A stretch of DNA of 34,074 nucleotides from Chitinophagaceae bacterium (GTDB taxonomy: Bacteria; Bacteroidota; Bacteroidia; Chitinophagales; Chitinophagaceae). Shown here piece by piece: positions 1,332 through 22,519 of the stretch. Within the stretch, counting starts at the first letter, position 1, and each line of letters opens with the position of its first letter. The notes under the pieces were generated by a model. It worked only from the letters and a program-made list of their open reading frames with translations. It searched no databases and was not told the DNA's origin. The stretch spans positions 1-34,074 of the forward strand of contig JAGODE010000019.1 in the NCBI GenBank assembly GCA_017998385.1, given 5' to 3'. A program made the translations under genes and the position numbers.

Positions 1332-3101
1332 TTAATGTACTTCAAGCGTTTTGTAACGGGCCGATACCCCATTTTCATTAATCGCTTCTATCGTAAAATA
1401 ATAGGTTTTTTCACGGTCCATCGCCTTAAACCAGTATTCGTTGAGATCATGTACCATCACGCAGTTGTACAGGCGGTCGGGTGAAGTGCCATAGTAAATA
1501 TTGTAAGCATAGGCATTATCTGCAGGGCTCCATTTGATATAGGCGCTACGCTTATCTTTTTCGGTTCGCAATACCATAAACTGTTTTACAGCTGCCGGTT
1601 TTTCTCCATTACCATTTCCAAATACACGCAGGCCACTGATGGCAAATTTGCCTGTAGGCATATGAATGTTTTCGAGTTTGATATAACGGGCCTGTATGGG
1701 CTGTGACAGTTCTACGTAATCGTGTGGCACATCCGTTTTATTGGCACTCTTATCGGCTATCACAGTCCATTTACGTCCATCAACAGAGGCCAGCAGGCGA
1801 TATTGATGATACTGATCGAGTCGTTTACCCAACCGGTCATCTGCCACATCCTGATCGGCATAATTGATCTGCACGGCATTAACTGCAGACAGTTGTCCCA
1901 GGTCTGTCTGTATCCATTCTCCCTTATTGGCCGAAGCTGCGCTCCAGTAGGTTTTAATATTTTCATCTACTGCATTGTTGGCAAAGTAACTGCCAAGAGT
2001 AGACGATACGGTCACCGGTTTTTTATAGTTAAGCAGCATCCAGCCGGTAAAGGCCTGTGTGCCGTAAGGTGCAGCAGGCAGATCTTTTACTACATGGGGC
2101 AGGTAATGCGGATAGTCGCCGAAAGAAGTATTGCAATACATCACATCGTTGGCATCGAAGCCGGTAGGCCAGATACCCAGTCTTCTTTCGAAATTGTTTT
2201 TTACAGACAGTACGATTGTGGAGACATGCCAGTAGTTGTTGAACTTATCCTGGAATGTGGCACCGTGGCCTGCGCCACGGGCAAAACCGCCGGGTTTGAA
2301 GCTAAGGGGATCTGATTGCGGCGTAAAAGGCCCCAGCGGTCCATCACCTACCAGCAAACCATCGGCATAGCCGCTGAATTCGGTACCCGGAGCACCATAT
2401 TGCAGGTAATATTTGTTTTTGTATTTCGTCATGTGCGATCCTTCGATAAAAGGATCGAGAAAAGTATTGTCCATATACTCACCAAAGCGCTGCCATCCAT
2501 ACCGCCAGTCTTCGAGAAAATACATTTCTTTACGGGCACCCAGTGGCTGCATTGTGTTGCGGTTAAGCTCCACGCCGTACATGGGGTAGCGATTGCTGCT
2601 GCCATTGTACATATACAGCCGGCCATCATCATCTGTAAAGAATGAGGGATCCCAGCCTCCAATGGCAAATGAATCAACGAGCGGCTTCCAGTCATCTGCT
2701 TTGGGATTCGTGCTCATCCAGATGGTAAAATTGGATGAATAGGTAGAACCAAATACCAGCATGGTATCGCCGATAATGCCTACAGCTGGTGCACAAAGCT
2801 CATCATACACTTTATTCCAGGGACGCAGAAAACGGCGCGATACGAAGTTCCAGTTGAGCATGTCTTCGCTCCACCAGTACCCCCATTGATTGGTGCTAAA
2901 CAGAAAATAAGTACCCTTATACGTTACAATTACCGGGTCGGCTGTGGCACGATGGCGCCCCCATTCGCTGAAATTGGGAATGGGTGTATATCCGTAATCA
3001 ATATTGATCGGGTTACAGTAGGTACGTTGTTGCGCATGGCTATCAACAGCCAAAAAAATGAGTCCCAACAATACCACAGCTGATACAATAGTCCTTTTCA
3101 T
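1332..3101 (-). CDS. GH43 family glycoside hydrolase with discoidin (F5/8C) and Fn3-like domains
   Basis: I place the start at the ATG at 3099-3101, which gives a clean signal peptide (MKRTIVSAVVLLGLIFLAVD, then SHAQ) and begins 7 bp after the DoxX stop. An upstream in-frame start would overlap DoxX by about 130 bp. The 589-residue product has an N-terminal five-bladed GH43 propeller with candidate catalytic residues: Asp in ATADPVIVTYKG, Asp in GGWDPSFFTDD and Glu in PFIEGSHMTK. A discoidin/CBM32-like domain follows (around residues 370-500, containing WSAASANKGEWIQTDLG and ARYIKLENI), then a C-terminal Fn3-like domain (SAYIKWSPADNAYAYNIYYG). GH43 enzymes usually act on arabinose, xylose or galactose linkages. 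I cannot assign a subfamily or substrate. Next to GH144 glucanases this activity is unexpected. Confidence 0.85.
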   Translation of the reverse strand: MKRTIVSAVVLLGLIFLAVDSHAQQRTYCNPINIDYGYTPIPNFSEWGRHRATADPVIVTYKGTYFLFSTNQWGYWWSEDMLNWNFVSRRFLRPWNKVYDELCAPAVGIIGDTMLVFGSTYSSNFTIWMSTNPKADDWKPLVDSFAIGGWDPSFFTDDDGRLYMYNGSSNRYPMYGVELNRNTMQPLGARKEMYFLEDWRYGWQRFGEYMDNTFLDPFIEGSHMTKYKNKYYLQYGAPGTEFSGYADGLLVGDGPLGPFTPQSDPLSFKPGGFARGAGHGATFQDKFNNYWHVSTIVLSVKNNFERRLGIWPTGFDANDVMYCNTSFGDYPHYLPHVVKDLPAAPYGTQAFTGWMLLNYKKPVTVSSTLGSYFANNAVDENIKTYWSAASANKGEWIQTDLGQLSAVNAVQINYADQDVADDRLGKRLDQYHQYRLLASVDGRKWTVIADKSANKTDVPHDYVELSQPIQARYIKLENIHMPTGKFAISGLRVFGNGNGEKPAAVKQFMVLRTEKDKRSAYIKWSPADNAYAYNIYYGTSPDRLYNCVMVHDLNEYWFKAMDREKTYYFTIEAINENGVSARYKTLEVH

Positions 3102-3108
3102 GCTTTCC

Positions 3109-3534
3109 TCAGTTCCGGGATTTTGTTTTTGAAAATAAAAGGGCATCCAGACTAAGCGCTCCTGGTCCGCAGCAAAAAAACAGTATAGCCAGTAATACAA
3201 ACAGGAAAGGATGCTGATCGGAGTACCACACCTGCCCATGACCTATAAAAAAAGTGATATAACCCATAGTGATCACTATGCCGAGAGCAGCTATACGGGT
3301 AAGCAGCCCCAGCATAAGCAGTACGCCCATTACCAGTTCCATCGCCTTACCTGCGTATACCATGGTAGCAGGTGAAGAAAAGCCTTTGAAGGCCTCCCAG
3401 TCAAAATATCCTTTCATGGTAGCTGCATCAAATAGTTCTCCGCCATGATAAGCCAGAAAACCTCCTGTCAGTATCCGGACGAACGCCAGGCCTGCAGATG
3501 GCCAAATGGGTTTTGAGGAGAAAAATGTGTGCAT
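3109..3534 (-). CDS. DoxX family integral membrane protein
   Basis: A four-helix membrane protein of about 141 residues. Typical DoxX features are LAFVRILTGGFLAYHGGELF at the N-terminus, then AMELVMGVLLMLGLLTRIAA, a GIVITMGYITFFIGHG segment and a C-terminal hydrophobic helix (PFLFVLLAILFFCCGPGALS, then LDALL). I chose the ATG at 3532-3534. The only longer in-frame start is a TTG at 3573 that overlaps the predicted promoter. DoxX proteins sit in the inner membrane and have been linked to redox or thiol stress and quinone-linked oxidation, but their biochemistry is poorly defined. Its place inside a polysaccharide locus, 7 bp upstream of GH43 and with its own promoter, suggests it begins a separate sub-operon (doxX, GH43, SGNH, GH3). 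Confidence 0.8.
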   Translation of the reverse strand: MHTFFSSKPIWPSAGLAFVRILTGGFLAYHGGELFDAATMKGYFDWEAFKGFSSPATMVYAGKAMELVMGVLLMLGLLTRIAALGIVITMGYITFFIGHGQVWYSDQHPFLFVLLAILFFCCGPGALSLDALLFSKTKSRN

Positions 3535-3731: not shown

Positions 3732-4895
3732 TTATATAACAGGCCATTTGAAAACAGACTCCAGGTTAATCCGTTTGCCGCTACGCCCTGATTCTCTTGC
3801 CGCTTCTATTACTTCCAGTACATGCAATGCATGTTCAGCATTGATCAGCGGTTCTTCGCCCGTCACCAATGCTTTTGATATCACGGAAGCGCCTTCCTGC
3901 CATACATAACTGCCCGGATCGGCAATAAACCGTTCTGTTTTTTCATGATCATGTGTAGCCATATCCACACCATGTGGCGCCCAGTCATAACCGGCCATTG
4001 CCATATTTCCATGCGAACCCCATATCTGGATAGTAGGCCGCTCCTGCCCTTTTCCCTCATGTCCATACGGATCAAAATAATTAAAGCCACATTGTACATG
4101 TGATAATACGCCATTGCCGTGATCCATTATCAACATGGCATTATCTTCAGCTTCTACTTTGATTTTCCCTTTATTATCCACAGTACGCTCTGGTGTTACT
4201 ATACTCGTCATTGCTACAACGGAAGCAGCGGGTCCCAGCAGCCCGGTGAGTGTAGCGATATTATACACACCCAGATCTGGCAAACTGCCACCTCCTTTTT
4301 CATAAAAGAATGCCGACCAGCCGGGTCCTGTATGTCCGTAATGTGCGTGAGCGCAGGCTACACGGCCCAGCTTTCCTTCCTGCAAGGCCTTTGACATAAA
4401 AGCAAACTGCGGACTGTTTACCACTGCCGGTGCTCCCCAAATGCGCAGGTTTTTGCTTTTGGCAAAATCGAGAAGGGCTTTTCCTTCTTTATATGTATTC
4501 GCCATTGGCTTTTCACTCCACACATGTTTGCCGGCGGTAAGGGCCATTTTATTAAGCCGGCCATGCTCCTGCATATCAGTAAGATTAACGAGCAGATCAA
4601 ACGGAGCGCCGGCTAATTGCTGATCGATATGCGGATAATGATTCGGAATTTTAAACTCAGCTGCCCTGCTTTTGGCTCTTTCATATACGATATCGCAGGC
4701 GCTCACAAGCTCTACGTAAGGCGATTTGGATAGATGCGGGAGGTATACCCCCGATACGCTTCCGCATCCAATAACAGCCAGCCGGATTTTTTTCTCACTT
4801 TTTTGCTGAGCAAATCCTTCGAGCGAAGAAAGCAATAAGGCTGCACCGGCCATTGCCGTGCGTTGCAAAAAATCCTGACGGGAGATAGTATCCAT
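3732..4895 (-). CDS. Gfo/Idh/MocA family oxidoreductase, exported
   Basis: A 387-residue NAD(P)-dependent oxidoreductase. The N-terminus (ISRQDFLQRTAMAGAALLLS, ending FAQ) resembles a Tat signal with a weak twin-arginine motif (SRQDFL). The Rossmann fold follows with AVIGCGSVSGVYLPHLSKSP as the dinucleotide-binding loop. The conserved EKP motif is seen in HVWSEKPMANTYKEGKALLD. The C-terminal alpha/beta domain carries GGGSLPDLGVYNIATLTGLL. Exported Gfo/Idh proteins are common in Bacteroidota sugar loci and can oxidise sugars or act as NAD-dependent glycosidases. The specific reaction cannot be read from sequence. It lies 121 bp downstream of the GH144 gene and is followed by the A/T-rich inverted array, so it probably ends the upstream transcription unit. 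Confidence 0.87.
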   Translation of the reverse strand: MDTISRQDFLQRTAMAGAALLLSSLEGFAQQKSEKKIRLAVIGCGSVSGVYLPHLSKSPYVELVSACDIVYERAKSRAAEFKIPNHYPHIDQQLAGAPFDLLVNLTDMQEHGRLNKMALTAGKHVWSEKPMANTYKEGKALLDFAKSKNLRIWGAPAVVNSPQFAFMSKALQEGKLGRVACAHAHYGHTGPGWSAFFYEKGGGSLPDLGVYNIATLTGLLGPAASVVAMTSIVTPERTVDNKGKIKVEAEDNAMLIMDHGNGVLSHVQCGFNYFDPYGHEGKGQERPTIQIWGSHGNMAMAGYDWAPHGVDMATHDHEKTERFIADPGSYVWQEGASVISKALVTGEEPLINAEHALHVLEVIEAARESGRSGKRINLESVFKWPVI

Positions 4896-5016: not shown

Positions 5017-6387
5017 CTATTTAACGGTTTGCCCTGCTGCAAGCCAGGGGCTTTCAAAACCCAGACGACGCAGGCCGGTTTTTATTTCGGGACAGCTCAT
5101 AAACAGTTTCCACAACAAGCCACTGCGATAATTTTCGATCATTACAATAATGGGCCCCTGATCAATAGCCAGATGACTTTTTGCATACCACTCTTTTGTT
5201 TCATTAAATGCATCGGTAAAGCCATACTCACTCCAGATGCGATCGCCTTTTTTTTCATAGAAATAACGCAGTGCCTTCATCGACTCTGCGGGTGTATAGG
5301 GAAATGCACTCAATGCTGCCGTAGGCGTAATGGTACCCAGGTCTTCTGTGGGCGAATGAGCAGCATAACCGTTATAGGTATCGCTGGCAGTGAGTCCCCA
5401 GCAGGAATCTCCATACCCTTTATACTTTAGCGGATTGTCGATGCAATATGCCCTATTGATCAGCGTATGATGGGTATTTTGTTCCCAATAGTCGGCATAT
5501 CGGTCTTTTAAACCCCGTGGATCAAGCCCCAGAAAAGAATATTGTGAGAAGAAGAGTGGTCCTCCGTAATCAAATCCAAGAGGTAGTTTGTATCCATAGA
5601 ACTCTTTACCATTTTTGAAGAAATTGCTTTCTGCCCATCCGCGGTGGTATACGGCCGGTGACACGGGATATTGGGTGCCGGATGCTGCCAGCACGTAGGT
5701 GATCAGGCATTCATTAAATCCCCGCAGCGGAAAATTCATGCTCCAGCCATTATTGGGACTCCAGTGCCAGTACAATACTTCCTGACCATCGCGAGTAAAC
5801 CAGTTCCATTCAACATCATTCCAGAGCCAGCCAATACGATTGCGCAGTTCCCTTTCGGTGTCGTCGGCGCCATTGAAATACTGACGGGCACACAAAAGAC
5901 CCTGAAACAGGTATGCCGATTCTACCAGATCGGCCCCATCATCTTTTCGGCTAAAAGGAATGGTCTTGCCGGTAGACCCATTGAGCCAGTGCGCAAATAC
6001 ACCATGATAGGCATCTGCCTTATGCAGAAACTTTACCATTTTCAGCAAAAAACGGGCGGCAGTATCTCTTGCGATCCATTTACGTTCGGTAGCTACAATG
6101 ACGGCCATAATGCCAAAGCCACTGCCACCTGTAGTTACCACTTCATTACCGTAACCAAAAGACTCATTGCTTCGCTCCCGGGCCAGGCCCGATACGGGAT
6201 GTGCAAAATCCCAGAAGTAACGAAAGGTCTGACGCTGTACGAGGTCAAGCAGGGCAGAGTCGCTCAATGCCGCGGGACGGGCTTTGGGATCAAAGGCGAT
6301 CGGTATTGTTTTCTTCTTTTGCGCATCCGCACAGCATACACTCAGTATAAAAATAACGGAAAGAGATATAGATCGTAACGTTGTCAT
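5017..6387 (-). CDS. GH144-type endo-beta-1,2-glucanase-like protein (soluble paralogue)
   Basis: A 456-residue protein with a signal peptide (MTTLRSISLSVIFILSVCC, then ADAQ) followed directly by an (alpha/alpha)6-barrel 'glucoamylase-like' (PF10091) sequence. Characteristic segments are QTFRYFWDFAHPVSGLARER, GGSGFGIMAVIVATER, the acidic stretch KDDGADLVESAYLFQGLLCA, NFPLRGFNECLITYVLAASG and AIDQGPIIVMIENYRSGLLW. This architecture matches GH144, founded on a Chitinophaga endo-beta-1,2-glucanase. It is closely similar along its length to the next gene upstream, from which it is separated by 9 bp, so the pair looks like a tandem duplication. It lacks that gene's N-terminal Ig-like domain and clear lipobox, so I infer a periplasmic location. 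The two adjacent Cys residues near the cleavage site leave a lipoprotein possible. Confidence 0.85.
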   Translation of the reverse strand: MTTLRSISLSVIFILSVCCADAQKKKTIPIAFDPKARPAALSDSALLDLVQRQTFRYFWDFAHPVSGLARERSNESFGYGNEVVTTGGSGFGIMAVIVATERKWIARDTAARFLLKMVKFLHKADAYHGVFAHWLNGSTGKTIPFSRKDDGADLVESAYLFQGLLCARQYFNGADDTERELRNRIGWLWNDVEWNWFTRDGQEVLYWHWSPNNGWSMNFPLRGFNECLITYVLAASGTQYPVSPAVYHRGWAESNFFKNGKEFYGYKLPLGFDYGGPLFFSQYSFLGLDPRGLKDRYADYWEQNTHHTLINRAYCIDNPLKYKGYGDSCWGLTASDTYNGYAAHSPTEDLGTITPTAALSAFPYTPAESMKALRYFYEKKGDRIWSEYGFTDAFNETKEWYAKSHLAIDQGPIIVMIENYRSGLLWKLFMSCPEIKTGLRRLGFESPWLAAGQTVK

Positions 6388-6396
6388 GTTGTAAAC

Positions 6397-8103
6397 TTAT
6401 AAGTAAGGAGCGGTGAATCCCAGCGTTTGCATGCCTGCTTTTACTTCAGGGCAGCTGGTAAATAAATTCCATAGTAATCCGGAGCGGTAGTTTTCGATCA
6501 TCACAATAATCGGCCCCTGATCAATTGCCAGGAAAGATCCGGCAAACCACGCATCTTTGAGTGAAAAGGCATCAATGAAGCCATATTCTTTCCATAATTT
6601 ATCGCCCAGCACATAATAAAAGAATTTCAAGGCAGCCATTGACTCTGCAGGTGTGTAGGGAAATGAAGACAATGCGGCTGTGGGAGCAATCACTCCCAGA
6701 TCATTGGTGGGCGAGCTGGCCGAATATCCATTTGGAATGTCGCTGGCAGTAAGCCCCCACACAGAATCGCTGTAGCCTAACTGGCCGCCGGGATTGGCTT
6801 TGCAATAACTATAATTGATGAGTGTATGATTGCGGGTTTGCTCTTCATAGTTGGCATAGGTGTCTGAAAGACCATTGGGGTTTATACCGAGGAATGAATA
6901 GTGAGAAAAGAAAAGAGGATGCCCCATGCTTCCGAGTGGTAAGCGATAGCCATAGTAAATGGTACCGTTTGTAAACGGACTGCTGCCATTGTTGGCCCAG
7001 CCGTTGGTATATACGATTTTGGGAATACTATGAGTGGGTGAAGAGGCCGCCAGCACATAGGTGATCAGGCATTCATTCCATCCGCGGATGGGCAGGTTCA
7101 TATCCCATTCATAATTGTTGCTGTAATGCCAGTAAAGTACATTTTGTCCGCCGCGTCTGAACCAATCCCATTCCACCCGCTGCCAGATAGTATTGATATC
7201 ATCGCGCAGGGTTGCTTCTGCCGGAGCAGCCTGATTAAAATACTGGCGCGCGCAAAGCAGGCCCTGTATCAGGTAGGAGGTCTCTACCAGGTCTGCACCG
7301 TTGTCTTTGGTGCTGAAGGGTACAATCTGTCCGGTACCACCATCGAGCCAGTGAGCGTATGCCCCTTTTACTGTTTGTGCTGTATTTTTTAAAAATGCAG
7401 TAATGGTTTGTAAACGAGCCAGGCCCTCTGTACGGGTAATGAATCCACGCTCAATACCCACCAGTATCGCCATGATACCAAAACCTGACCCACCGGATGT
7501 AACGACATTATCATTGCCATTGCTGCGCTCACGAGCCAGGCCGCTGGCAGGATGACCATAGTCCCAGAAATATTTGAATGTTTGCTGTTGCACTTTGTCA
7601 AGCAGTGCAGCATCGGATATAGCGGGAAACTTGCGGGAAGAATCGATCCCTGTCATCAACGTTATCTCTTTGGGGTTGGTAAGTGCTCCTCCTGCTTTGG
7701 AACGGAGCGAACCGGCAACTGCTACTTTATACCTGCTGAGAGCTGTAAGTGGTGCTGAGGAACTGAGTACGACGAGGCTGTCACCTTTTTCATAAGAAAA
7801 AGCGGTACTTACCTGCGTACCCGATGCCTGGCGCAGGGTAATATTTGCGGCCGTGCTGGCACGGTCAATGGCATTGTTGAACTGAAGCCTTAGTTGAAAA
7901 TTAAGACCCGTGCCTATATATTCTGTTTTAGAAAGCACTCCGTTAACCGACCAGGATACCAGGCTGTAGTTATCGGGTGGAGCCGGCGTTTCTTTGCCGC
8001 CGCCCTTTGAACATGATATGCCAAGCACAGCAACAGACAGGCCGGCCACCGCCAATGTGGCTTTAGCCGGATAAAAAAAAGATCGAAGATTCATACGTTT
8101 CAT
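6397..8103 (-). CDS. GH144-type endo-beta-1,2-glucanase-like lipoprotein with N-terminal Ig-like domain
   Basis: A 568-residue protein. The N-terminus has a lipoprotein signal (lipobox LGISC, Cys about residue 31) and a Gly/Pro-rich linker. A bacterial Ig-like domain of the SbsA/Big_5 type covers roughly residues 48-150 (LQFNNAIDRASTAANITL, LTALSRYKVAVAGSLRS). The GH144-type barrel follows: QQTFKYFWDYGHPASGLARE, GGSGFGIMAILVGIERGF, KDNGADLVETSYLIQGLLCA, NLPIRGWNECLITYVLAASS and IDQGPIIVMIENYRSGLLW. The lipid anchor and Ig spacer suggest it is the outer-surface endo-acting enzyme that produces oligosaccharides for SusCD import. It starts 85 bp downstream of the FG-GAP gene, after a hairpin. 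A second ATG at 8094 is also possible. Confidence 0.87.
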   Translation of the reverse strand: MKRMNLRSFFYPAKATLAVAGLSVAVLGISCSKGGGKETPAPPDNYSLVSWSVNGVLSKTEYIGTGLNFQLRLQFNNAIDRASTAANITLRQASGTQVSTAFSYEKGDSLVVLSSSAPLTALSRYKVAVAGSLRSKAGGALTNPKEITLMTGIDSSRKFPAISDAALLDKVQQQTFKYFWDYGHPASGLARERSNGNDNVVTSGGSGFGIMAILVGIERGFITRTEGLARLQTITAFLKNTAQTVKGAYAHWLDGGTGQIVPFSTKDNGADLVETSYLIQGLLCARQYFNQAAPAEATLRDDINTIWQRVEWDWFRRGGQNVLYWHYSNNYEWDMNLPIRGWNECLITYVLAASSPTHSIPKIVYTNGWANNGSSPFTNGTIYYGYRLPLGSMGHPLFFSHYSFLGINPNGLSDTYANYEEQTRNHTLINYSYCKANPGGQLGYSDSVWGLTASDIPNGYSASSPTNDLGVIAPTAALSSFPYTPAESMAALKFFYYVLGDKLWKEYGFIDAFSLKDAWFAGSFLAIDQGPIIVMIENYRSGLLWNLFTSCPEVKAGMQTLGFTAPYL

Positions 8104-8142: not shown

Positions 8143-8185
8143 AACTGCTGCTGCCTTTTATGCGCCTTAACAGGTAGCAGCAGTT
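8143..8185 (-). terminator. Candidate terminator after the FG-GAP gene
   Basis: On the minus strand a 14-bp stem (one G-T mismatch) built from AACTGCTGCT repeats encloses a 15-nt loop and is followed by TTTATTTATAAA. It begins 4 bp after the FG-GAP stop codon and ends 40 bp before the GH144 lipoprotein start. It could terminate or attenuate read-through into the glucanase genes. Confidence 0.5.
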
Positions 8186-8188
8186 GAA

Positions 8189-11100
8189 TTATCTGGTACT
8201 GGTGGCCGTTGCAGGATTTGCTTTATAAAAAAGCATCCGGTCATCATTGCGGGTAACGGCCATTACCGGCGAGCCGGCAATTGTTAACCATTTAATATCC
8301 CTGATCTCTCCTGCCGGCATAGGTATAAATGCGGTGTTTTGAATATGCCCGTTTTGCTTATTATAGGAAAAAACGGTGGGCAACTGTGCATCATACCGGC
8401 CTTCGTAAGGAATGACCCCGTAAAAATTACCTCCTGCAAGATAAGAGCCATAAGATGGCAAAGCTGCAAAAGAAAACAAAGGAGCCAATTGCAGTTCGTC
8501 GGGCAATACCTGTGCGGTGAAGCCTCCCTTGCCATCGTTGATAAAACAGGTTGAGCCGAGCGTTTCTGCTTTCAGCTCTTTATATCCTTCAAACAGATTA
8601 TATAAAATATAATCAACTGTCTTACCGGCTATGTCCTTATAGTAGAGATACGATTTTTTAAGAACCGGTAACGGACGCTCCAGTTCATCTTTCGCCAGGA
8701 AAGGATATTCTTTTCCTTTAATGGTATAGGCCATGATCTGCTCTACGGAACCATTGCCGTCAAAATCCTTTACATATAGTTTCAGAGGGCCGTCTTTTCC
8801 TGCATACAGCTTACTGTTCAATCCCCAGTTGCCGGCCAGGATATCAGGCTTGCCATCATTGTTTATATCTGCTATTTGTACCGATTGCCAGAGTCCGGTT
8901 GATGCAGGCAGGTCTGTGGCAGTAAACCGCCCCTGTTTATTCATAAATATTTTTACGGGCATCCATTCGCCGGTGACCACCAGGTCCTGCCAGCCATCCT
9001 GGTCGAGATCAACAAAGGAGGCTGCAGTAACCATGCCAACAGAATCGAGTGCAATGGCAGCAGCAGGCGCTGGTTTGAAGCTCGCTGCGCCATCGTTGAG
9101 CAACAGATAAGAAGACTGTGCAATACCATACTGCCGGGCATCGGCCAGGCCGCCTACAAACAGATCGATGTCTCCGTCTTTATCAATGTCGGCTGCGGCA
9201 ACACATGATTTATTGCGCAGTAATGAGGGAATGGATGCCGGAGAAGCCGTGAAATGTCCCTTACCATCGTTCAGGTAGAAATGATCGGCCAGTACGGGGT
9301 TATTATTGTCATACTGATTACCGCCCGATACCACATACAGGTCGGGATAGCCATCGTTGTTGGCATCAAAGAAAACAGCATCTACATCTTCGCTTGCTGC
9401 GGCCCGGTTAAACAGGGCTGTATCTGCGCTTATAAACCTGCCTCCTGCTATTTGTATCATGAGCTGTCCGGGTTGGCCAGCTGCACCGCATACAAAGAAG
9501 TCATCGCGGCCATCTTTGTTTACATCGGCTACGGCCATTTTTGGACCGCGGGTAGACAGCTGATGTGGTATCAGGTATTGTTTATTATAATCAAAAAAGT
9601 CGTTTTCCCTATGTGACCAGTTTACGGATACCTGGGCGCTAATGTCTTTAAACAATGGTGCAGGTGCCGGAAAAAATTTCTGATAATCAAATACGCCTCC
9701 TGCCTGGGCATGCACGGCCTGAATATTTTCAACTGCAGGAACGTTTTTCATCCACTGATATTTCTGATCGGGCCATACAACCAGTATGCTGTCTATATTT
9801 CGAATGCTGTCTGTTCCAAAGTGCAGTTTAGGCTCTACCGATGACTGAAAGCCCCTGGTTAGTGACAGTTGCTGGTATTGAATTTTGCCTTTTGCAAATA
9901 ACCATACTTTGGCGCCTATGCCAAAGCGGTTCATGCTATCGCCTTTAAAAGTGATATTCATCATCATCTTTAAAGGTGTTTTGTTCTTCAGAATTACTGC
10001 AGGCTCATCAATACAGTTTATAATTACATCCAGATTGCCGTCATTATCGAGATCGGCATAGGATGCTCCTGTATAATATCCTTTCATTTTTTCTGTGCCC
10101 CACTCTGCGCTTACGTCTTTAAACCTGAGACTGCCATCGCCTTTGTAGAAAAAAGGATGTGAGCTTCCATCGGGCATACTCTTGATTGCTTCATCGTCAT
10201 ATGCATCGGTTTGCTGCCTTCCCTTTTTCATATCCAGATCAGATACAAAGCGTATATAGTCCATGTCTACCGGGCGTTTTACAATGCCGCTGGTAATAAA
10301 CAGGTCCTTGTTTCCGTCATTATCAAAGTCGGCGAACAGTGGTGCCCAGCTCCAATCGGTAGCCGAAATGCCGGCAATCAGTGCCACATCGCTAAAGCTG
10401 CTCCCGCTGCCGTTATTGCGTTGCAGGCTGTTTCTTGAATATTGCTTCTGATAGCCATGCATATCCAGTTTCATTTTATAAATGTCCGGATTCTCATCGC
10501 TGCCATAGGTTTTCAATACGGCTTCGTCGTAAGGAAGCATGTCTACTGTTACCACATCTGGCTGGCCATCATTATTATAATCGGCTACATCATTGCCCAT
10601 ACTAAAGCGGCTGTAATGCCGGAAGTGGGCGGCGCCGCTTTCGGTAAATGTGCCATTGCCGTTGTTGATGTAGTAGTAGTCGTTTTCGTGAAAATCGTTG
10701 CCGATGTAAATATCATCCCATCCGTCGTTATTCATATCTGCGATGGCAATGCCCAGCCCGTAGCCCAGATTACTTTGGTAAATGCCGGCCTGCGCCGACA
10801 CATCGGTAAACTTTCCGCTTGTTGCTATATCATTGCGGAATAGCCGGTCGCCCGATGCCGGGTCAAAACGCCGGCGATTGGCCGTGTCTATAATATTGGC
10901 ATGCGGGTGGTGAGATTGATTGAGGATATAAACATCAAGGTCTCCATCATGGTCGTAATCAAAAAAAGCAGATTGCGTGGAAAGTCCTGAAAAGTCAAGA
11001 CCATATTTTGCGGCACTCTCTGTAAAAGTACCATTACCATTATTTATAAAAAGCTCATTGCGGCCTGTAAGTCCATACTTGCCGCTTACTGCCGAAGTAT

Positions 11101-11515
11101 AAATGTCTAAAAGGCCATCGCCATTGATATCTGTCATGGTTACCCCTGTACACCAATCGGCCGTTCCGGCCACTCCGGCTTTTGCCGTAATATCTTCAAA
11201 CTGAAAATTGCCTTTATTGAGGTAGAGTTTATTGCCGCTTTTATGGTTGGCGGTGAAATAAATATCCGTCAGTCCGTCATTATTGACATCGCCGGTAGCT
11301 ACACCTGCACCGTTGTAATAATACAGGTAGTAAAGGATATTCAGCAGGGGCTTCTTTGTGAGTGTATTGGTGAAACTGATATTGGTCTGCGAGGCTGGCA
11401 GGCTTTCGAAGAGGCTGTCTTTGTCCTCTTTTTTGCTTTCGCAGGAGCTTAATACTAATGCCGTACCCGCCGAAACGATAACAGATAAAAAAAGCGATTG
11501 CTTTTTTACAAACAT
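8189..11515 (-). CDS. FG-GAP/VCBS repeat lipoprotein with ASPIC/UnbV domain
   Basis: An 1108-residue protein with a lipoprotein signal (VLSSC, Cys 25, followed by the acidic, charged ESKKEDKDSLFE typical of surface export). It carries about 13 calcium-binding FG-GAP/VCBS motifs of the DxNxDGxxD type, for example DVNNDGLTDIYF, DINGDGLLDIYT, DYDHDGDLDVYI, DMNNDGWDDIYI, DFDNDGNKDLFI, DVNKDGRDDFFV, DIDKDGDIDLFV and DINNDGKPDILA. They predict two beta-propellers split by an ASPIC/UnbV segment around residues 515-590 (GIGAKVWLFAKGKIQYQQLS, LHFGTDSIRNIDSILVVWPD). The family often sits beside SusCD in Chitinophagaceae and related groups. Its function is unproven, with surface glycan or protein binding most likely. 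A hairpin separates it from the LamG gene. Confidence 0.87.
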   Translation of the reverse strand: MFVKKQSLFLSVIVSAGTALVLSSCESKKEDKDSLFESLPASQTNISFTNTLTKKPLLNILYYLYYYNGAGVATGDVNNDGLTDIYFTANHKSGNKLYLNKGNFQFEDITAKAGVAGTADWCTGVTMTDINGDGLLDIYTSAVSGKYGLTGRNELFINNGNGTFTESAAKYGLDFSGLSTQSAFFDYDHDGDLDVYILNQSHHPHANIIDTANRRRFDPASGDRLFRNDIATSGKFTDVSAQAGIYQSNLGYGLGIAIADMNNDGWDDIYIGNDFHENDYYYINNGNGTFTESGAAHFRHYSRFSMGNDVADYNNDGQPDVVTVDMLPYDEAVLKTYGSDENPDIYKMKLDMHGYQKQYSRNSLQRNNGSGSSFSDVALIAGISATDWSWAPLFADFDNDGNKDLFITSGIVKRPVDMDYIRFVSDLDMKKGRQQTDAYDDEAIKSMPDGSSHPFFYKGDGSLRFKDVSAEWGTEKMKGYYTGASYADLDNDGNLDVIINCIDEPAVILKNKTPLKMMMNITFKGDSMNRFGIGAKVWLFAKGKIQYQQLSLTRGFQSSVEPKLHFGTDSIRNIDSILVVWPDQKYQWMKNVPAVENIQAVHAQAGGVFDYQKFFPAPAPLFKDISAQVSVNWSHRENDFFDYNKQYLIPHQLSTRGPKMAVADVNKDGRDDFFVCGAAGQPGQLMIQIAGGRFISADTALFNRAAASEDVDAVFFDANNDGYPDLYVVSGGNQYDNNNPVLADHFYLNDGKGHFTASPASIPSLLRNKSCVAAADIDKDGDIDLFVGGLADARQYGIAQSSYLLLNDGAASFKPAPAAAIALDSVGMVTAASFVDLDQDGWQDLVVTGEWMPVKIFMNKQGRFTATDLPASTGLWQSVQIADINNDGKPDILAGNWGLNSKLYAGKDGPLKLYVKDFDGNGSVEQIMAYTIKGKEYPFLAKDELERPLPVLKKSYLYYKDIAGKTVDYILYNLFEGYKELKAETLGSTCFINDGKGGFTAQVLPDELQLAPLFSFAALPSYGSYLAGGNFYGVIPYEGRYDAQLPTVFSYNKQNGHIQNTAFIPMPAGEIRDIKWLTIAGSPVMAVTRNDDRMLFYKANPATATSTR

Positions 11516-11544: not shown

Positions 11545-11579
11545 AAAAGGGCTGAAACAATTAAATGTTCAGCCCTTTT
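11545..11579. terminator. Perfect 12-bp hairpin between LamG and FG-GAP genes
   Basis: AAAAGGGCTGAA at 11545-11556 pairs perfectly with TTCAGCCCTTTT at 11568-11579 across an 11-nt loop. The A/T ends of the stem give a T-run in either direction. It lies 32 bp after the LamG gene stop and is well placed to end the susC-susD-LamG transcript. Confidence 0.7.
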
Positions 11580-11611: not shown

Positions 11612-12499
11612 TTACTGCTTGGCATTATACAGGGCCTGAATTTCTGTGGCAGATAATGCTACGCCGTATAATCTGAACTGGTCGATATCGCCTTTCATAG
11701 AAGCTGCCAGCCAGTCATCAGAAGCATAGTTGGTAGAAGGACCTGCTCCAACCCGATACTCTTCGATAAATGTGGTAGATAAGCGTAAAGCTCCATGACC
11801 CGTCCAGGTTTTTACGTTGGGGTTTTGTATGCCATCTATATACAGTTTCGCCGTGCTGTTTGTTTCGTCATACACGAGGGCCATATGGTGCCATTGATTG
11901 TTGCAAAGGCCGGCGATGGATTCACCACCTTCCCAGGTAAACCAGGAGTCAGCCGGAGCACTGTTCGGATCAGATGCATTGGAAGGGCTTACGAACATGC
12001 TTTTTACAGCACAGGCCGTATTGTTTCCCTCCAGGAATAAGAATCCTACGGCATTGCTCCAGTGGTAATCTGAATTATCAGATTTCTTCTTGGCTTTCAG
12101 CGAGAAAATGTATTCAGGTCCGTTAGTTCCATTATTATTCTTTGTCTGTCCGTCTTTTTTAAACCATACGGAGATGGTTACACTGCTACTACCAGCCCAG
12201 GTATTAAAAGATGGATACTTAATAAAGGTTTTGTTTACCCCTGACAAAGCCTTACCGTTTATACCATCTGTAGTGGTAAAAGGGTTGTCGTTGGGAAACA
12301 GGGCTCTGATGCTGTCTACTGCATTCATCAGCGGATTTGTGGTGGTACCATCAAATGCAGCATAGAATTTCAATGGACCGTCAGGAGGGTTGCTGTCAAC
12401 CGGATAGTCGCCCAGTTTGGGTTCTTTCATTTTCTGGCAGCTTGTCATGGCGATTACCATCAGGGAAGCCGACAGGAAGATTTTAGCTATATGTTTCAT
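11612..12499 (-). CDS. LamG/concanavalin A-like lipoprotein (SusE/F position)
   Basis: A protein of about 295 residues with a lipoprotein signal (VIAMTSC, Cys 21 counting from the ATG at 12499; an alternative ATG two codons upstream is at 12505). The mature part starts with acidic and charged residues and contains a LamG/laminin-G_3 jelly roll. The markers are SSVTISVWFKKDGQ, NNQWHHMALVYDETNSTAKL, YIDGIQNP and a closing DIDQFRLYGVALSATEIQAL. It follows susD by about 30 bp, the position where SusE/SusF-type surface glycan-binding lipoproteins usually lie. No catalytic motif is evident, so I read it as a substrate-binding surface protein. Confidence 0.82.
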   Translation of the reverse strand: MKHIAKIFLSASLMVIAMTSCQKMKEPKLGDYPVDSNPPDGPLKFYAAFDGTTTNPLMNAVDSIRALFPNDNPFTTTDGINGKALSGVNKTFIKYPSFNTWAGSSSVTISVWFKKDGQTKNNNGTNGPEYIFSLKAKKKSDNSDYHWSNAVGFLFLEGNNTACAVKSMFVSPSNASDPNSAPADSWFTWEGGESIAGLCNNQWHHMALVYDETNSTAKLYIDGIQNPNVKTWTGHGALRLSTTFIEEYRVGAGPSTNYASDDWLAASMKGDIDQFRLYGVALSATEIQALYNAKQ

Positions 12500-12528
12500 A
12501 GTCATTTTTTTTAACTATTGATTATATG

Positions 12529-14061
12529 TTATGGCCATTCGGGGTTTTGAACAAGGTTAGGGTTAGAATTCAGTGCTGAATTCGGAATGGGATAATACCT
12601 GTGTTTGTTCTGATAACCATTACCGGCAAGTACTGTTACGGCATCGCCCCATCTTACCAGATCAAAGAAGCGTTCAAACTCCATGGCAAACTCAGCTCTT
12701 CTCTCTCTTTTGATTAACGTACGCATTTGTGCCTGGCTTACAAAGGAAATGCCACCAAGACCTGCTCTCGTACGTACCATATTTACCCAGGTAACAGCAT
12801 CGGTCTGATTTTGTGCGCCACCTACTTCATTGGCGGCTTCAGCAGCCATCAGGTATACATCGGCCATGCGGAAAACACGTTGGTTAACCCAGGTGTTTTG
12901 TGCTTCGTTGTTGGGTGTGCCGAGACCTGCTGCCTGGTAGTCGGAATATTTGTTATACACTTTTTTATTCCAGTACAGGGCATTGCTGAGGTTGGGAACA
13001 GTTTCTCCGTAACCGCCGGTATTAGAACCGCCGTCTGACTGACCGGAGTACAGAATAGTTGCGGCTTTTCTTTCGTCACCCACCTCATAAGAACCTTCCA
13101 GTGCTGCAGTGGGTGTATTCCAGCCCCAGCCCAGATCCCATGTGCCGGAACCACGTACGCCCTGGCACTGACCGAGACGGCTCCAGTAGGTATCGCCATC
13201 TCCAGCTTTCTTATATGCCTGGATCTCGAAAATAGATTCTTCAGAAAGCTCGCCTTCTGTTTTGAAGATTCGCCAGTAAGGAGCATACAATGGCGCATCA
13301 GCACCACCAGCCCTTGTAGCCATTACTTCTTTACACAAAGTGAGGGCTTCTCCCCATTTCTGCTGATAAAGTTTCACTTTAGCCAGGAAAGTGCGGGCAG
13401 CAGATTTTGTCAGCCTTCCGGGATAATCCAACCATGCCACGGGCAGGTTTTGCTCGGCGTCTGTCGGATCATCTTCAATAAGCTGGTATATCTCTGCTAC
13501 TGTTGATTTTGCTTTATAACCATCAGAAGGAGTATTGATTTTGAAATCAATCTTCGGTACTTCTCCAAACGTTCTTACCAGATCAAAGTAAGAGTAGGCC
13601 CGGAAAAATTTGGCTTCTGCAATGTTTATGATTGATGCAGGATCGGTGTAATTGTTCTGCTCTGCATCATCCAGTACATTATTACAAAGACCGATAAAAA
13701 CATAGTGTTTATCCCAGTAAAGACCGGCCCCCCAATCATCTTTGGTATACTGGAAGTTGTCGTAAGTCTGGTGCCAGGCTGTTGCACCGGGATCGGATAC
13801 GATTTCCGCATCATCGGAGCGGAAACCATTCATGGCTACCCAGGCAATATTCTGAAACCCATCCCCGCAATAGGGCTCTGCTTTTGAGTTGCGGATAGCG
13901 CCGTAAAGACCCAGCGTTTTTCCCTCGAGGGCGCCCACATTCAGGTCATCCTGTGTGGCCTGCAAAGGCTCCCTGTCGAGGAACTTTTTACACCCTGATA
14001 GTGAAGTAATCGCCGGCAAAGCGATCAAAGCACCTGCGATCAGTTTTATTATAGTTTTCAT
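12529..14061 (-). CDS. SusD/RagB family nutrient-uptake outer membrane lipoprotein
   Basis: A 510-residue protein with a lipobox LSGC (Cys 24) followed by KKFLDREP, the usual SusD mature N-terminus. It has the TPR-like helical SusD fold signatures: EAKFFRAYSYFDLVRTFGEV, AARTFLAKVKLYQQKWGEAL, then RVFRMADVYLMAAEAANEVG and ERRAEFAMEFERFFDLVRWG near the C-terminus. It ends in the common NPNLVQNPEWP-type tail. SusD forms the lid of the SusCD complex and binds oligosaccharides at the cell surface. It starts 28 bp after the susC stop. Confidence 0.95.
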   Translation of the reverse strand: MKTIIKLIAGALIALPAITSLSGCKKFLDREPLQATQDDLNVGALEGKTLGLYGAIRNSKAEPYCGDGFQNIAWVAMNGFRSDDAEIVSDPGATAWHQTYDNFQYTKDDWGAGLYWDKHYVFIGLCNNVLDDAEQNNYTDPASIINIAEAKFFRAYSYFDLVRTFGEVPKIDFKINTPSDGYKAKSTVAEIYQLIEDDPTDAEQNLPVAWLDYPGRLTKSAARTFLAKVKLYQQKWGEALTLCKEVMATRAGGADAPLYAPYWRIFKTEGELSEESIFEIQAYKKAGDGDTYWSRLGQCQGVRGSGTWDLGWGWNTPTAALEGSYEVGDERKAATILYSGQSDGGSNTGGYGETVPNLSNALYWNKKVYNKYSDYQAAGLGTPNNEAQNTWVNQRVFRMADVYLMAAEAANEVGGAQNQTDAVTWVNMVRTRAGLGGISFVSQAQMRTLIKRERRAEFAMEFERFFDLVRWGDAVTVLAGNGYQNKHRYYPIPNSALNSNPNLVQNPEWP

Positions 14062-14089: not shown

Positions 14090-17000
14090 TTAGAAATTAG
14101 CATTCAGACCAAAAGTGATAATACGGGGTAATGCACTTCCGGCATTGCCGTAGTCAATTCCAAAGCTCAGCGCGTCGCCAGCAAACTCAGGAGAGTAACC
14201 CATGTTTTTCTTCCAGGTTTTCAGGTTTTGTACATTGAATGAAAGACGCAGATTCTTGATACCCGTACTTCTTGGCAGTTTGGCAAATGTGTAACCCAGG
14301 TTCAGGTTTCTTATACGGAAGTAGCTACCGTCTTCAATACCGTATGTAGAAGGAGCCCGGTTAATCAGGTGCAACTGGTTTACGATAGGCACTGTGTTGG
14401 AAGTACCTGCAGCAGTCCAGGCCTCTGTGTAATACTTAGGATAGTTATACAGAGAGTTTTTCTGCTCAGAAGTACCCCATACACGGTAAATCTCACCGCC
14501 ATAGCTTCCACCGAAATCAATACCCAGGTCAAAGGATTTATATTTCAGTTGTGTTGTGAAGCCATAGGTAAAATCAGGCGTGGGGTTACCGATCATCTGA
14601 CGGTCATTGTCATTGACGATACCATCGCCATTCAGATCTTTATATTTCAGATCACCGGGTTTGGCACCACCGCCATTGATAGTACTAACCGGCGAACCAA
14701 GAATATCTCTGTAAGACTGATAGATGCCTTCAACTACTAAACCGTAGAAGTAACCGATCGGATATCCGGTTTGTGCCTGGTTAGGAGTTTGCTCGCTCGA
14801 TGAAATGTTGGGTCTGCTGGGATACTCCAGGTGCAGTACCTTATTCTCATACGTGGTCAGGTTACCTGATACATTCAGCGTGAGGTCTTTGCTGAAGTTG
14901 TGTGTATAGGCAGCGCTGAATTCAAAACCGTTGTTGCGGATAGAACCGTTGTTGGTGAGCGTGCGCAATACGCCGGAAGGCTCAAGCAATACGATCAGGT
15001 TCTCAGTTTTCTTATAATAATAGTCTGCCTCGAAGTGCAGTTTTCCTTTCATGAACTCTGCTTCTACACCAATCTCGGTTGATTTAACTGTTTCCCAGCG
15101 CAGGTTGGGGTCATACAGATAATCGGGCTCATATACCGGTACGAGGTTTTCACCAAATACGGCAGATGAGCTGGCAGAGATAGTGGGATAGGCAGGATAG
15201 TTTTTACCCTGAGCGGTAAAGTTACCCAGCACACCGGTAGAGGCTTTCAGTTTCAGGAAGTTGACAACATCCTGGTTAGCCATGAAATCTTCCTTGGTAA
15301 GTTCCCATGCAGCACCCACAGCCCAGAAGTTCTGGAATTTGTTCTTATAGTCGCGGCTGATCTGGCTTGAACCATCGCGGCGGAAACTTGCATTCACATA
15401 GTATTTACCCTGATAGTTGTACAGCAAACGGGCCAGGCCTGATACTGTAGCATATTCCGACTGGTCGGAAGGGATTACGCTTTTCACATCGCCGAATCCT
15501 GTATTGATATACCAGAATCTTTTGTTGTTGGGTATAATGCTTCTGCCTTCTCTTGACTGAGATACAGTAGCCGAACCCTGCTCATACTTATAATAATAAG
15601 TAGTGAAACCACCGGTCAGTGTCAGGTTATGATCGCCGAATTTCTTTTTATAAGTAGCGATATAGTCCTGCTGAAACGCCTTGGTGTTGATGAGATCCTG
15701 TCTTACGGCAGTCAGTGTGTTTTTGCCGATTACCTGATCGCCGGTAAAGGTGGGATCATACAGGTCATACAGCGGAGTGTATTCGCGGTTATTTCTCCAG
15801 CTCATATCTGCGTACCAGGTGCTGCGGAAGTTCAGGTCTTTTGTAATGTTGATATCAACATACATATTACCTACCATCCGGTATTTGTCATCAATCTTCT
15901 TGTCGCCATTATACATCAGGTTGGCCAGCGGATTGGTTTCAGAGTTCTGAATGATAGGAACTGTAGAGTAGAGATCAAAATTGGCTGAATCTATACCATA
16001 AGGATTTTTGGTATAGTACTTAGTGGTACCGTCTGATACGATGGGTACGATACGGCGGGCCTGCTCGAGTGCACCACTGTTATAGGGCAGCCTTTCTTTT
16101 GAACCGATTATATTAAACCCAAGTTTCCAGGTCTTATTTATTTTAAACTCATCGGCCAGGTTGATGGTGAGACGATCATAACGCACTTTTTTTACCAACC
16201 CTTCATCGTAGTTATAACCCAGGCCCATGTGGAACCTGTTTTTTTCTGTGCTTGCATCAACACTAAGATTGGTTGTGCTGAATTTTGCCGTACGTGTTAC
16301 TGCATCGATCCAGTCTGTATTACCTGTAAATGCTCCCATACCCGGACCGCCTACGTTATTCACGAAGCTGAGAAGCGAAAGTGCACTGGGATCATCAAAT
16401 ACACGGTTATTGGCTTCAAAGGTTGCAAGAGCTCTGAACTCATCAGCATTGGCCAGTTGAATCTTATCAACCAGATTTTTTACACCATAAGAAGTGTTGA
16501 AGTTGATATTGGTCTGGCCGGCTTTTGCCTTTTTGGTCGTAACCAGGATAGCACCTGCCGCCCCTTTGATACCGAATACCGCCAGTGAAGAGGGATCTTT
16601 CAGGATCTCCATACTCTCAATTTCACTGGGGTTTACAAAATCCATGTTGTCGCTGAAGATACCATCAATGATATACACGGGGCGGATAGAGCCCACACTG
16701 ATAGTACCCCTGATTCTTACATCGGGAGCGGAACCGGGGATCGCTGTATTGATGATATTCAGACCCGCTACTTTTGACTGAAGTGAAGACAGCGGGTTTG
16801 AGTTGGGTTGAGAGGCGATTTCATCGCCTTTAATTTTCACGATAGAACCGGTCAGATCGCGCTTTGAAGCGGTACCATAACCAATCACCACTACCTGATC
16901 CATTACTTTGGTAGAGGTAACAAGCGCCACATTCACATCTGTGCGACCACCCAGTGCTACTTCCTGCTCATCGTATCCGATAGATGAGATGACAAGCGTA

Positions 17001-17518
17001 ACATTGGCATTGGGAACACTGAAGGAGAAGGTACCATCCGAGTTGGTAGTCGTACCTATGGCAGTACCTTTTACCACGATAGAAGCGCCTGCTACAGGAG
17101 CGCCACCTTCGCCGGTCACTTTACCACGCACCACCACATCAACACGGGGGGCATCTGTACCGTTACCTTCCTTTATCACGATCAGGTTGTTGCCCATGAG
17201 CTGATACAGGAGGCGGGTCTTGTTAAGCATGAGGTCAAGTACTTCCTTGAGCTCGGCATCTTTTACATCGATGGAAATTTTTTCCCGGATGTCCTGGAGG
17301 TTGTTGTTATAGAGAAAACGGTACTGGGTCTGCTTTTCAATAGAACGAAGCAGGCCACCAATCTCTGTCTTTTTTGCACGCAGGCTTATCTTCTCCTGAC
17401 CAAAGCCATGAGCCGATGCATTCAGTGTGAAAAAAAGCGTCAATAAAGCGGTTAGCCTCATAAGTAGCAGCGCTTTTGATTGCAACGGTTTTTTACCAAC
17501 CGTTTTAGAACATTTCAT
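14090..17518 (-). CDS. SusC/RagA TonB-linked outer membrane transporter with STN signalling domain
   Basis: A 1142-residue TonB-dependent transporter. After the signal peptide it has an STN domain around residues 43-110 (SLRAKKTEIGGLLRSIEKQT, KDAELKEVLDLMLNKT), which in this class contacts a FecR anti-sigma factor. A carboxypeptidase-D regulatory-like domain follows (VRGKVTGEGGAPVAGASIVV), then the plug (VIGYGTASKRDLTGSI, VYIIDGIFSDNMDFVNPSEI, ESMEILKDPSSLAVFGIKGA) and a long beta-barrel ending in a terminal Phe. With SusD it imports oligosaccharides across the outer membrane. The STN domain together with the adjacent FecI/FecR pair indicates trans-envelope induction: substrate at SusC, FecR, sigma factor. 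It lies 140 bp downstream of fecR, with a hairpin in the gap. Confidence 0.96.
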   Translation of the reverse strand: MKCSKTVGKKPLQSKALLLMRLTALLTLFFTLNASAHGFGQEKISLRAKKTEIGGLLRSIEKQTQYRFLYNNNLQDIREKISIDVKDAELKEVLDLMLNKTRLLYQLMGNNLIVIKEGNGTDAPRVDVVVRGKVTGEGGAPVAGASIVVKGTAIGTTTNSDGTFSFSVPNANVTLVISSIGYDEQEVALGGRTDVNVALVTSTKVMDQVVVIGYGTASKRDLTGSIVKIKGDEIASQPNSNPLSSLQSKVAGLNIINTAIPGSAPDVRIRGTISVGSIRPVYIIDGIFSDNMDFVNPSEIESMEILKDPSSLAVFGIKGAAGAILVTTKKAKAGQTNINFNTSYGVKNLVDKIQLANADEFRALATFEANNRVFDDPSALSLLSFVNNVGGPGMGAFTGNTDWIDAVTRTAKFSTTNLSVDASTEKNRFHMGLGYNYDEGLVKKVRYDRLTINLADEFKINKTWKLGFNIIGSKERLPYNSGALEQARRIVPIVSDGTTKYYTKNPYGIDSANFDLYSTVPIIQNSETNPLANLMYNGDKKIDDKYRMVGNMYVDINITKDLNFRSTWYADMSWRNNREYTPLYDLYDPTFTGDQVIGKNTLTAVRQDLINTKAFQQDYIATYKKKFGDHNLTLTGGFTTYYYKYEQGSATVSQSREGRSIIPNNKRFWYINTGFGDVKSVIPSDQSEYATVSGLARLLYNYQGKYYVNASFRRDGSSQISRDYKNKFQNFWAVGAAWELTKEDFMANQDVVNFLKLKASTGVLGNFTAQGKNYPAYPTISASSSAVFGENLVPVYEPDYLYDPNLRWETVKSTEIGVEAEFMKGKLHFEADYYYKKTENLIVLLEPSGVLRTLTNNGSIRNNGFEFSAAYTHNFSKDLTLNVSGNLTTYENKVLHLEYPSRPNISSSEQTPNQAQTGYPIGYFYGLVVEGIYQSYRDILGSPVSTINGGGAKPGDLKYKDLNGDGIVNDNDRQMIGNPTPDFTYGFTTQLKYKSFDLGIDFGGSYGGEIYRVWGTSEQKNSLYNYPKYYTEAWTAAGTSNTVPIVNQLHLINRAPSTYGIEDGSYFRIRNLNLGYTFAKLPRSTGIKNLRLSFNVQNLKTWKKNMGYSPEFAGDALSFGIDYGNAGSALPRIITFGLNANF

Positions 17519-18759: not shown

Positions 18760-18819
18760 GCAGCAATCGTCGTTGTCCTTATAAGGACAGGACAATCAGA
18801 ATGATCTACTAAAAAGTAG

Positions 18820-19476: not shown

Positions 19477-19637
19477 GTTTCAGCAATACTAAATTAGAGA
19501 AACTCTTATAAATCAGCCAAGTTTTATTTCGCAAGAACAGTTTTAGACTGCTAAAAACTACAATTATGCTATTAAAAAGGGGCTGACCAGCGAGGCCATT
19601 TTGATCAGAATCTTACACTTACAGTCGTTAGGATACT

Positions 19638-19645
19638 TACATTTG
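19638..19645 (+). promoter_or_regulatory. Bacteroidota -7 element upstream of paaA
   Basis: TACATTTG is an exact TAnnTTTG match 33 bp upstream of the chosen paaA ATG, giving a 5' UTR of about 25-30 nt. No good TTG at -33 was found. It supports the ATG at 19679 over the in-frame TTG at 19601, which lies upstream of this element. Confidence 0.5.
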
Positions 19646-19678
19646 CAAAGGGCTCTGCCCCTTAAAAACTGTTTGCCC

Positions 19679-20623: not shown

Positions 20624-20650
20624 CCTCTTTCTAACCTGCAAACATTACAT

Positions 20651-22492: not shown

Positions 22493-22519
22493 CACTAATC
22501 CTCCATTCAATATTTACTT

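Follow-up and report, generated by a model that had tools for sequence, protein, structure and literature searches.

SusCD systems are main nutrient importers of Bacteroidota. SusE/SusF-type surface glycan-binding lipoproteins are encoded with SusCD in polysaccharide utilization loci (PULs), and BtuG is a propeller that forms the lid of BtuB. CRTAC1, whose mouse structure is available (PDB 9etn), consists of a propeller followed by a UnbV/ASPIC domain. The propellers of PVL lectin, integrin alpha and aldos-2-ulose dehydratase are grouped in the VCBS supercluster (PMC8023676). Here, we analyzed 34,074 nucleotides of DNA from a Chitinophagaceae bacterium (contig JAGODE010000019.1, positions 1 to 34,074; hereafter the window), in which a gene at 8189-11515 encodes a large FG-GAP/UnbV lipoprotein in a locus with SusC and SusD. 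We see about an even chance that this protein is a B-form member of a CRTAC1-like family of two-propeller lipoproteins and an accessory of SusCD uptake. The family as a whole is probably a widespread, little-studied accessory of sugar uptake.

Architecture and predicted structure of the lipoprotein

An earlier first-pass annotation, made from the sequence alone, described a 1108-residue protein with a lipoprotein signal and about 13 calcium motifs in two propeller blocks around an UnbV domain. The reading frame is present and lies on the minus strand, which that annotation had not stated. Its features are as follows:

8189..11515, minus strand: FG-GAP/UnbV double-propeller lipoprotein, B form, 1108 amino acids (aa)
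11441..11515, minus strand: lipoprotein signal peptide, lipobox LSSC, residues 1-25
9986..11338, minus strand: first beta-propeller, approximately residues 60-510, seven Dx[DN]xDG motifs
9734..9922, minus strand: UnbV/ASPIC domain (Pfam), residues 532-594
8216..9661, minus strand: second seven-bladed propeller, approximately residues 619-1100, five strict calcium-type motifs and one relaxed

The motif count agrees with the earlier estimate. The protein holds 12 strict Dx[DN]xDG motifs, and 13 when DFDGNG at residue 917 is counted, with seven N-terminal to the UnbV domain and five (plus the relaxed motif) C-terminal to it. By comparison, 500 shuffles of the protein gave a mean of 0.14 strict motifs and a maximum of 2. 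Pfam FG-GAP_3 matched in 10 stretches, and integrin profile matches fall in the calcium blades. UnbV_ASPIC scored 65.8 bits at residues 532-594 against a curated cut-off of 23.4, which places the protein in the UnbV/ASPIC (CRTAC1) family.

We then folded the protein with AlphaFold, using an alignment of 119 rows (the window protein and 118 others, retained from 138 candidate rows after 20 had been dropped). The model has a mean predicted local distance difference test score (pLDDT) of 93.5 and a predicted template modelling score (pTM) of 0.93, and shows the predicted order of a seven-bladed propeller, the UnbV/ASPIC domain and another seven-bladed propeller. Residues 33-614 superpose on mouse CRTAC1 with Z 39.6 over 464 residues, at 2.5 A and 24% identity, and the sequence profile also matches that CRTAC1 chain (E 1.7e-26). 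The FG-GAP propeller ahead of UnbV therefore has the CRTAC1 fold that is typical of the family. The CRTAC1 structure has one propeller, whereas the window protein adds a second, together with a bacterial lipobox and a SusCD neighbourhood. Because this second propeller (residues 618-1108) is whole and seven-bladed, we do not class the protein as a CRTAC1 orthologue and regard it as a variant architecture.

The second propeller, folded alone with 83 of the 119 rows in its alignment, again gave seven blades (pLDDT 94.7). It matched LGI1 (Z 31.4), CRTAC1 (Z 30.1) and aldos-2-ulose dehydratase (Z 29.3 over 350-354 residues) about equally, so its fold is uninformative on function. Many unrelated seven-bladed propellers matched it at Z 26-31, and for this reason we rejected fold similarity as an argument for an enzyme; the absence of other propeller enzymes from the match lists proves nothing. 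The protein shares calcium-type blades and the seven-bladed fold with the VCBS-supercluster propellers, but identity is low and the lipobox-propeller-UnbV-propeller layout was not met among them.

The lipoprotein signal is a lipobox, LSSC, with Cys25. The corresponding alignment column holds Cys in 115 of 119 rows; three more rows have a nearby Cys and one is cut by a contig end. Pattern searches found a lipobox in 88 (strict) or 117 (looser) of 143 family members, and we judged the alignment column to be the better measure of conservation. Many residues outside the calcium loops are also near-invariant in the 119 rows, among them W121, E277, D279, T386-D387-W388-S389-W390, D419, H635, E637, W851 and W876, and the family conserves the aromatic/polar stretches NDFHExDY, TDWSW, NGIxxRPxDLDY and HxEN. 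Because so many aromatic and polar residues are nearly invariant beyond the calcium loops, the conservation suggests putative ligand pockets.

Recurrence beside SusC and SusD

The same annotation held that such proteins recur next to SusCD. We surveyed 80 related loci, the best 80 of 581 confirmed, a set that favours B forms (defined below) because best matches were chosen. A further 20 loci, each from a different genome of the window's own family, served as a second sample; these were hand-picked and mostly not the top match. Labels such as SusC and SusD come from profiles built here, and "SusC" may include other TonB-linked receptors. Loci are numbered with L, and contigs of the window's own genome with C.

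Conserved co-occurrence was evident. SusC and/or SusD was found in 68 of the 80 loci (both in 57, one of them in 11), with SusD in 62 and SusC in 63. Neither was found in 12, and nine of these have a contig end no more than 2 kb upstream of the FG-GAP block, which leaves L029, L078 and L080. In the second sample, SusC/SusD lay upstream on the same strand in 13 of 20 loci, and Sus genes were nearby in another layout in three (L116, L117 and L129). Within the window's genome, the copies in the window and on C391, C438 and C300 follow SusC-SusD, and a further fragment on C98 is truncated by a contig end. The window protein itself is encoded with SusC and SusD and bears a lipoprotein signal, two marks of a SusCD-associated lipoprotein. 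It shares with SusE/SusF-type proteins its nature as a lipoprotein encoded with SusCD in a PUL, but differs in its propeller fold and in the hairpin that precedes its gene; it is the LamG gene that is contiguous with SusD.

Among 60 genomes of the family (own included, taken as Chitinophagaceae on the strength of named relatives), 53 gave a match (33 with E printed as 0, 20 weaker) and seven gave none. Of 118 genomes from the phylum, the window's own among them, 53 carry the UnbV domain, versus 0 of 14 well-known control genomes; the sole Bacteroides control genome has SusD yet no UnbV.

Two observations concern the copies in the window's genome. On C438 (L154, 3282-6631), the first FG-GAP gene after SusD lies in two frames of 559 and 549 aa, either a broken gene or an assembly error. 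The FG-GAP and SusD genes of Sphingobacteriales bacterium 46-32 (L026) are nearly identical to the C391 copies, which indicates that the window's genome is close to that bacterium.

A conserved hairpin divides the operon

The gene had been called hairpin-bounded, with separately tuned expression proposed on that basis. Two hairpins are found at its borders:

11545..11579, minus strand: conserved covarying hairpin between the LamG and FG-GAP genes, 12-pair stem
8143..8186, minus strand: weak hairpin after the FG-GAP gene

The upstream hairpin was matched by none of 200 shuffles (z -5.98). Across 12 sequences, including that of the window, the stem shows 93.6% pairing, a figure that leans upward because rows were picked by best hairpin. 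Six of the 12 pairs carry changes on both sides, a number that none of 500 shuffles reached; 34 of 500 attained the observed count of pair types. The lowest-energy 45-mer after LamG or SusD, ranked without shuffles, is a hairpin of -13.9 to -24.9 kcal/mol in each of the 15 glucan-clade sequences examined (see below).

Intergenic gaps in the 80 loci and the window, short loci L001-L008 excluded, were searched for a local hairpin with an energy of -12 kcal/mol or below. Any gap shorter than 30 bases counted as hairpin-free, so gap length is part of the pattern. A hairpin was present in 34 of 39 SusD-FG-GAP gaps and eight of nine LamG-FG-GAP gaps, and the ninth (L022) does hold one, its called start being too early. 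Hairpins were rarer in the SusC-SusD (2/59), SusD-LamG (1/12), FG-GAP-FG-GAP (5/56) and FG-GAP-haloperoxidase (1/25) gaps, and were found in 38 of 101 gaps between unlabelled same-strand neighbours. The second sample gave 10/11 for the gap before FG-GAP versus 0/11 for SusC-SusD, 0/6 for FG-GAP-FG-GAP and 0/5 for FG-GAP-haloperoxidase.

A genome-wide repeat was rejected as the source of the hairpin, the exact motif occurring at one genome position, and Rfam gave no match in the window. The hairpin is only partly special to FG-GAP genes. Where another same-strand gene follows SusD in the window's genome, a hairpin follows at once in three of 19 cases versus two of two when FG-GAP is next, but a number of SusD genes are followed by a hairpin at a greater distance, beyond one or more intervening genes. 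Such hairpins thus also close other SusD-led segments, and this one is an operon divider of a more widely used kind.

On the downstream side, the hairpin is unremarkable (z -1.35; 18 of 200 shuffles were as good), with no steady counterpart in relatives. "Hairpin-bounded" thus holds for the upstream side, where the structure is strong, covarying and recurrent, and fails downstream. Separate tuning is retained in altered form: the conserved hairpin groups LamG with SusCD in one segment (SusC-SusD-LamG) and leaves FG-GAP as the first gene of another, which continues into the enzymes, and the gene is not a hairpin-flanked island. From this arrangement we infer lower expression of the segment behind the hairpin.

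A and B forms

We built family trees from 143 rows, leaving out FG-GAP pieces shorter than 850 or longer than 1300 aa. FastTree recovered two large clades, A and B, of 56 rows each, with 31 rows in neither. In an IQ-TREE analysis of 56 chosen rows, A and B each formed one side of a branch, with supports of 99 and 100 in the Shimodaira-Hasegawa-like approximate likelihood ratio test (SH-aLRT). The window protein is a B form within a clade of 19 rows, 17 of whose loci hold GH144-type genes (GH, glycoside hydrolase family); we refer to this as the glucan clade.

The two forms hold different places in their loci. SusD is directly upstream of A in 33 of 56 rows. An FG-GAP gene lies upstream of B in 29 of 56, and a vanadium-haloperoxidase homologue directly downstream in 22 of 56. 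SusC-SusD-A-FG-GAP is uninterrupted in 22 of 56 A rows, and SusC-SusD-A-B is a frequent unit. Tandem neighbours (n = 44) were A-B in 27 cases, A-other in nine, other-A in five, and B-A, A-A and neither in one each; with A and B in separate clades, the tandem genes for the most part did not arise by recent duplication. The two forms are distinguished by 14 positions (at least 75% in each form, over 44 A rows and 55 B rows). Thirteen of these are in the first propeller, 10 of them at residues 61-65, 252, 281, 331 and 414-420. Such a pattern might be expected if the two forms bind different ligands.

Outside the glucan clade, some of these general cassettes have genes that match GH65, trehalase, sugar kinases and major facilitator superfamily (MFS) transporters, and they may serve small glucosides. 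Two further families accompany the FG-GAP genes. Cluster c2, of about 200 aa, occurs between or before FG-GAP genes in 13 loci (L044, L048, L056, L057, L058, L069, L076, L082 and others), has a lipobox in 11 of the 13 and gave no Pfam match. Cluster c1, of about 300 aa, follows the haloperoxidase homologue in 16 loci (L041, L042, L045 and others) and gave no Pfam or PDB match.

The B form in a glucan locus

The window gene lies in a single minus-strand run that leads from extracytoplasmic function (ECF) sigma factor and FecR genes through SusC, SusD, the LamG lipoprotein, the FG-GAP protein and two PF10091 genes to downstream enzymes:

18820..19476, minus strand: ECF-type sigma factor
17659..18795, minus strand: FecR-type anti-sigma factor
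14090..17518, minus strand: SusC TonB-linked transporter
12529..14061, minus strand: SusD
11612..12505, minus strand: LamG-domain lipoprotein, in place of the A-form FG-GAP gene of other cassettes
6397..8103, minus strand: PF10091 (GH144-type) protein with lipobox and Big_5 domain
5017..6387, minus strand: PF10091 (GH144-type) endo-beta-1,2-glucanase homologue
3732..4895, minus strand: GFO/IDH/MocA oxidoreductase
1332..3239, minus strand: GH43 with F5/8 type C domain
640..1314, minus strand: GDSL esterase/lipase
2..625, minus strand: GH3-type piece, 208 aa, truncated at the contig end and grouped by clustering with L011's Pfam-named GH3

The label "glucan locus", also from the first-pass annotation, is fair, because one of the two PF10091 genes (5017-6387) matches endo-beta-1,2-glucanase 5gzh at E 1e-160; it also matches 4gl3, named putative glucoamylase, at E 2e-188. 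Judged from these homologies, beta-1,2-glucan would be the likeliest substrate. GH144 homologues adjoin SusC/SusD, as in known GH144 beta-1,2-glucan PULs, and the ECF sigma/FecR genes are a further likeness; unlike those loci, the window locus contains a B-form FG-GAP protein. GH30 is an addition in related loci, some of which also have a multihaem cytochrome or a haloperoxidase homologue. In four glucan-clade loci (L015, L017, L018 and L031), the gene between LamG and FG-GAP encodes a protein that matches multihaem cytochrome c (by Pfam, for the copy in L018). Electron transfer would be unexpected in a glucan locus.

No A gene is in view in the 19 glucan-clade rows. Directly upstream of B we found LamG in nine, the cytochrome-like c17 (after LamG) in four, SusD in two, another gene in one and a contig end in three. 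The SusD tree (FastTree, with some long branches) agrees with this. One clade unites 44 of 47 general-cassette SusD and two of three from own-genome FG-GAP loci, with support 81, or 92 with one further own SusD. The 13 glucan-clade SusD form a separate clade (support 100) that joins one ordinary own SusD and the SusD of L019, L070 and L085 (support 96). The C300 SusD is outside both. Because the glucan-clade SusD belong to a different lineage, the B form has probably changed its SusCD partner. Together with the LamG lipoprotein where A would stand, this indicates that B was probably recruited into a GH144 (beta-1,2-glucanase) locus.

Haloperoxidase homologues occur in 30 of the 80 loci and nine of the 20 sampled loci, in two of the latter (L120 and L124) without SusCD in view. 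They match 4cit, a vanadium-dependent haloperoxidase from Zobellia, at E 5e-113 and 3e-188. All 30 rows spanning this region retain the motifs K-x6-RP, [SC]GH and R-YGGIH; S is replaced by C in the glucan group, L025 and L028, and L028 reads GGLH. Four of the 19 glucan-clade loci (L010, L013, L016 and L053) have the gene in view directly after B. Their homologues group together (support 97) next to those of L025, L028, L116 and the window's own genome (C352, 7743-9047); among B forms, too, those of L025 and L028 are close outgroups to the glucan clade. Joint transfer of the B and haloperoxidase genes, with later loss of the latter in the window, is plausible; it is weakened by L024 and L026, which are no more distant as outgroups of B and yet show no haloperoxidase gene.

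Other genes in the window

Beside the ECF sigma gene, the plus strand at 19601-23293 carries phenylacetate-degradation-type genes (two PaaA_PaaC and one enoyl-CoA hydratase). Two adjoining proteins at 25986-28814 end in a Por secretion (type IX) sorting domain, and a sigma-54 activator response regulator (28930-30336) adjoins a CHASE3 histidine kinase (30922-32343).

Proposed role and alternatives

In the role that we propose, the Dx[DN]xDG loops would bind calcium and stiffen the blades, and the conserved aromatic/polar stretches would form one or two putative saccharide-binding pockets. The protein would be anchored at the outer membrane, putatively exposed on the surface, and would capture a glucan fragment or present it to SusCD and the GH144 enzymes. 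Because of the hairpin its copy number would be lower than that of SusCD, and the B form would have been recruited into the window locus.

Several observations weigh against this reading. No Sus gene is in view in four of the 20 sampled loci (L114, L118, L120 and L124), and the altered SusD lineage speaks against the protein being a dedicated partner of SusCD. Hairpins end other SusD-led segments too and are no proof of a special role, and the grouping with enzymes behind the hairpin would also suit an enzyme. The putative pockets are argued from sequence alone. Finally, published surface-export signals of lipoproteins are acidic residues after the Cys (PMC5080379). The corresponding family residues are not acidic; acidic minus basic residues average -0.28 (117 rows) versus +1.04 for SusD (53 rows), and the window SusD, which reads CKKFLD, also has no acidic stretch there.

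An enzyme is the first alternative: the propeller pockets would carry out a lyase, dehydratase or isomerase step on sugar, like some other VCBS-type propellers. The FG-GAP gene does travel behind the hairpin with the enzymes and not with SusCD, E277, D279, D387, D419, H635 and E637 are near-invariant outside the calcium loops, and the second propeller resembles aldos-2-ulose dehydratase. But the non-enzymes LGI1 and CRTAC1 also reach Z of about 30, profile matches to PDB sequences at E 0.01 include no dehydratase, and in our judgement no obvious catalytic set has been gained or lost at the 14 A/B-distinguishing positions. Aldos-2-ulose dehydratase has cupin domains after its propeller; the Pfam scan of the window protein found no cupin family, and the chain ends with the second propeller. 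We consider an enzyme unlikely.

Alternatively, the SusCD complex could contain the protein in fixed stoichiometry, as a structural subunit or as a lid like BtuG on BtuB. Its recurrent position by SusCD, the A/B pair and the single rigid model (pTM 0.93) are in keeping with this idea. A fixed lid is disfavoured by the hairpin, which predicts unequal amounts of SusD and FG-GAP protein, and by the other SusD lineage with which the window B form sits; FG-GAP genes also occur without SusCD in view. We regard this role as distinctly improbable.

It is very unlikely that the protein is the partner of an oxidative haloperoxidase-like module with the glucan locus as a secondary home: the 4cit homologues are frequent, often directly after B, and those after B in four glucan-clade loci group with L025 and L028, but the window has none, only 4 of 19 glucan-clade loci have one in view, 50 of 80 loci are without it, and the B outgroups L024 and L026 show none.

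The accessory role for SusCD uptake thus remains our preferred reading. A bolder extension, which we hold to be quite doubtful, is that A and B would be non-identical subunits of a new SusCD accessory, with different ligands, that works with a membrane-anchored vanadium haloperoxidase, and that B was taken over by a beta-glucan locus in which LamG replaced A.

Relation to published work and significance

We found no role for such proteins among Creative Commons (CC)-licensed papers in PubMed Central (PMC), in line with the earlier statement that none is established. The component domains are known, but the same papers yielded no instance of the lipid-anchored layout of CRTAC1 plus a second propeller, of the A/B cassette or of the haloperoxidase neighbourhood, and the accessible text on the F. 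johnsoniae SusCDE complex mentions no propeller protein (PMC12611786). If it is true that a SusD clade works with a pair of giant A and B propellers, then many non-gut SusCD systems would have core parts that have hardly been studied, and the bacterial relatives of CRTAC1 would gain a testable setting.

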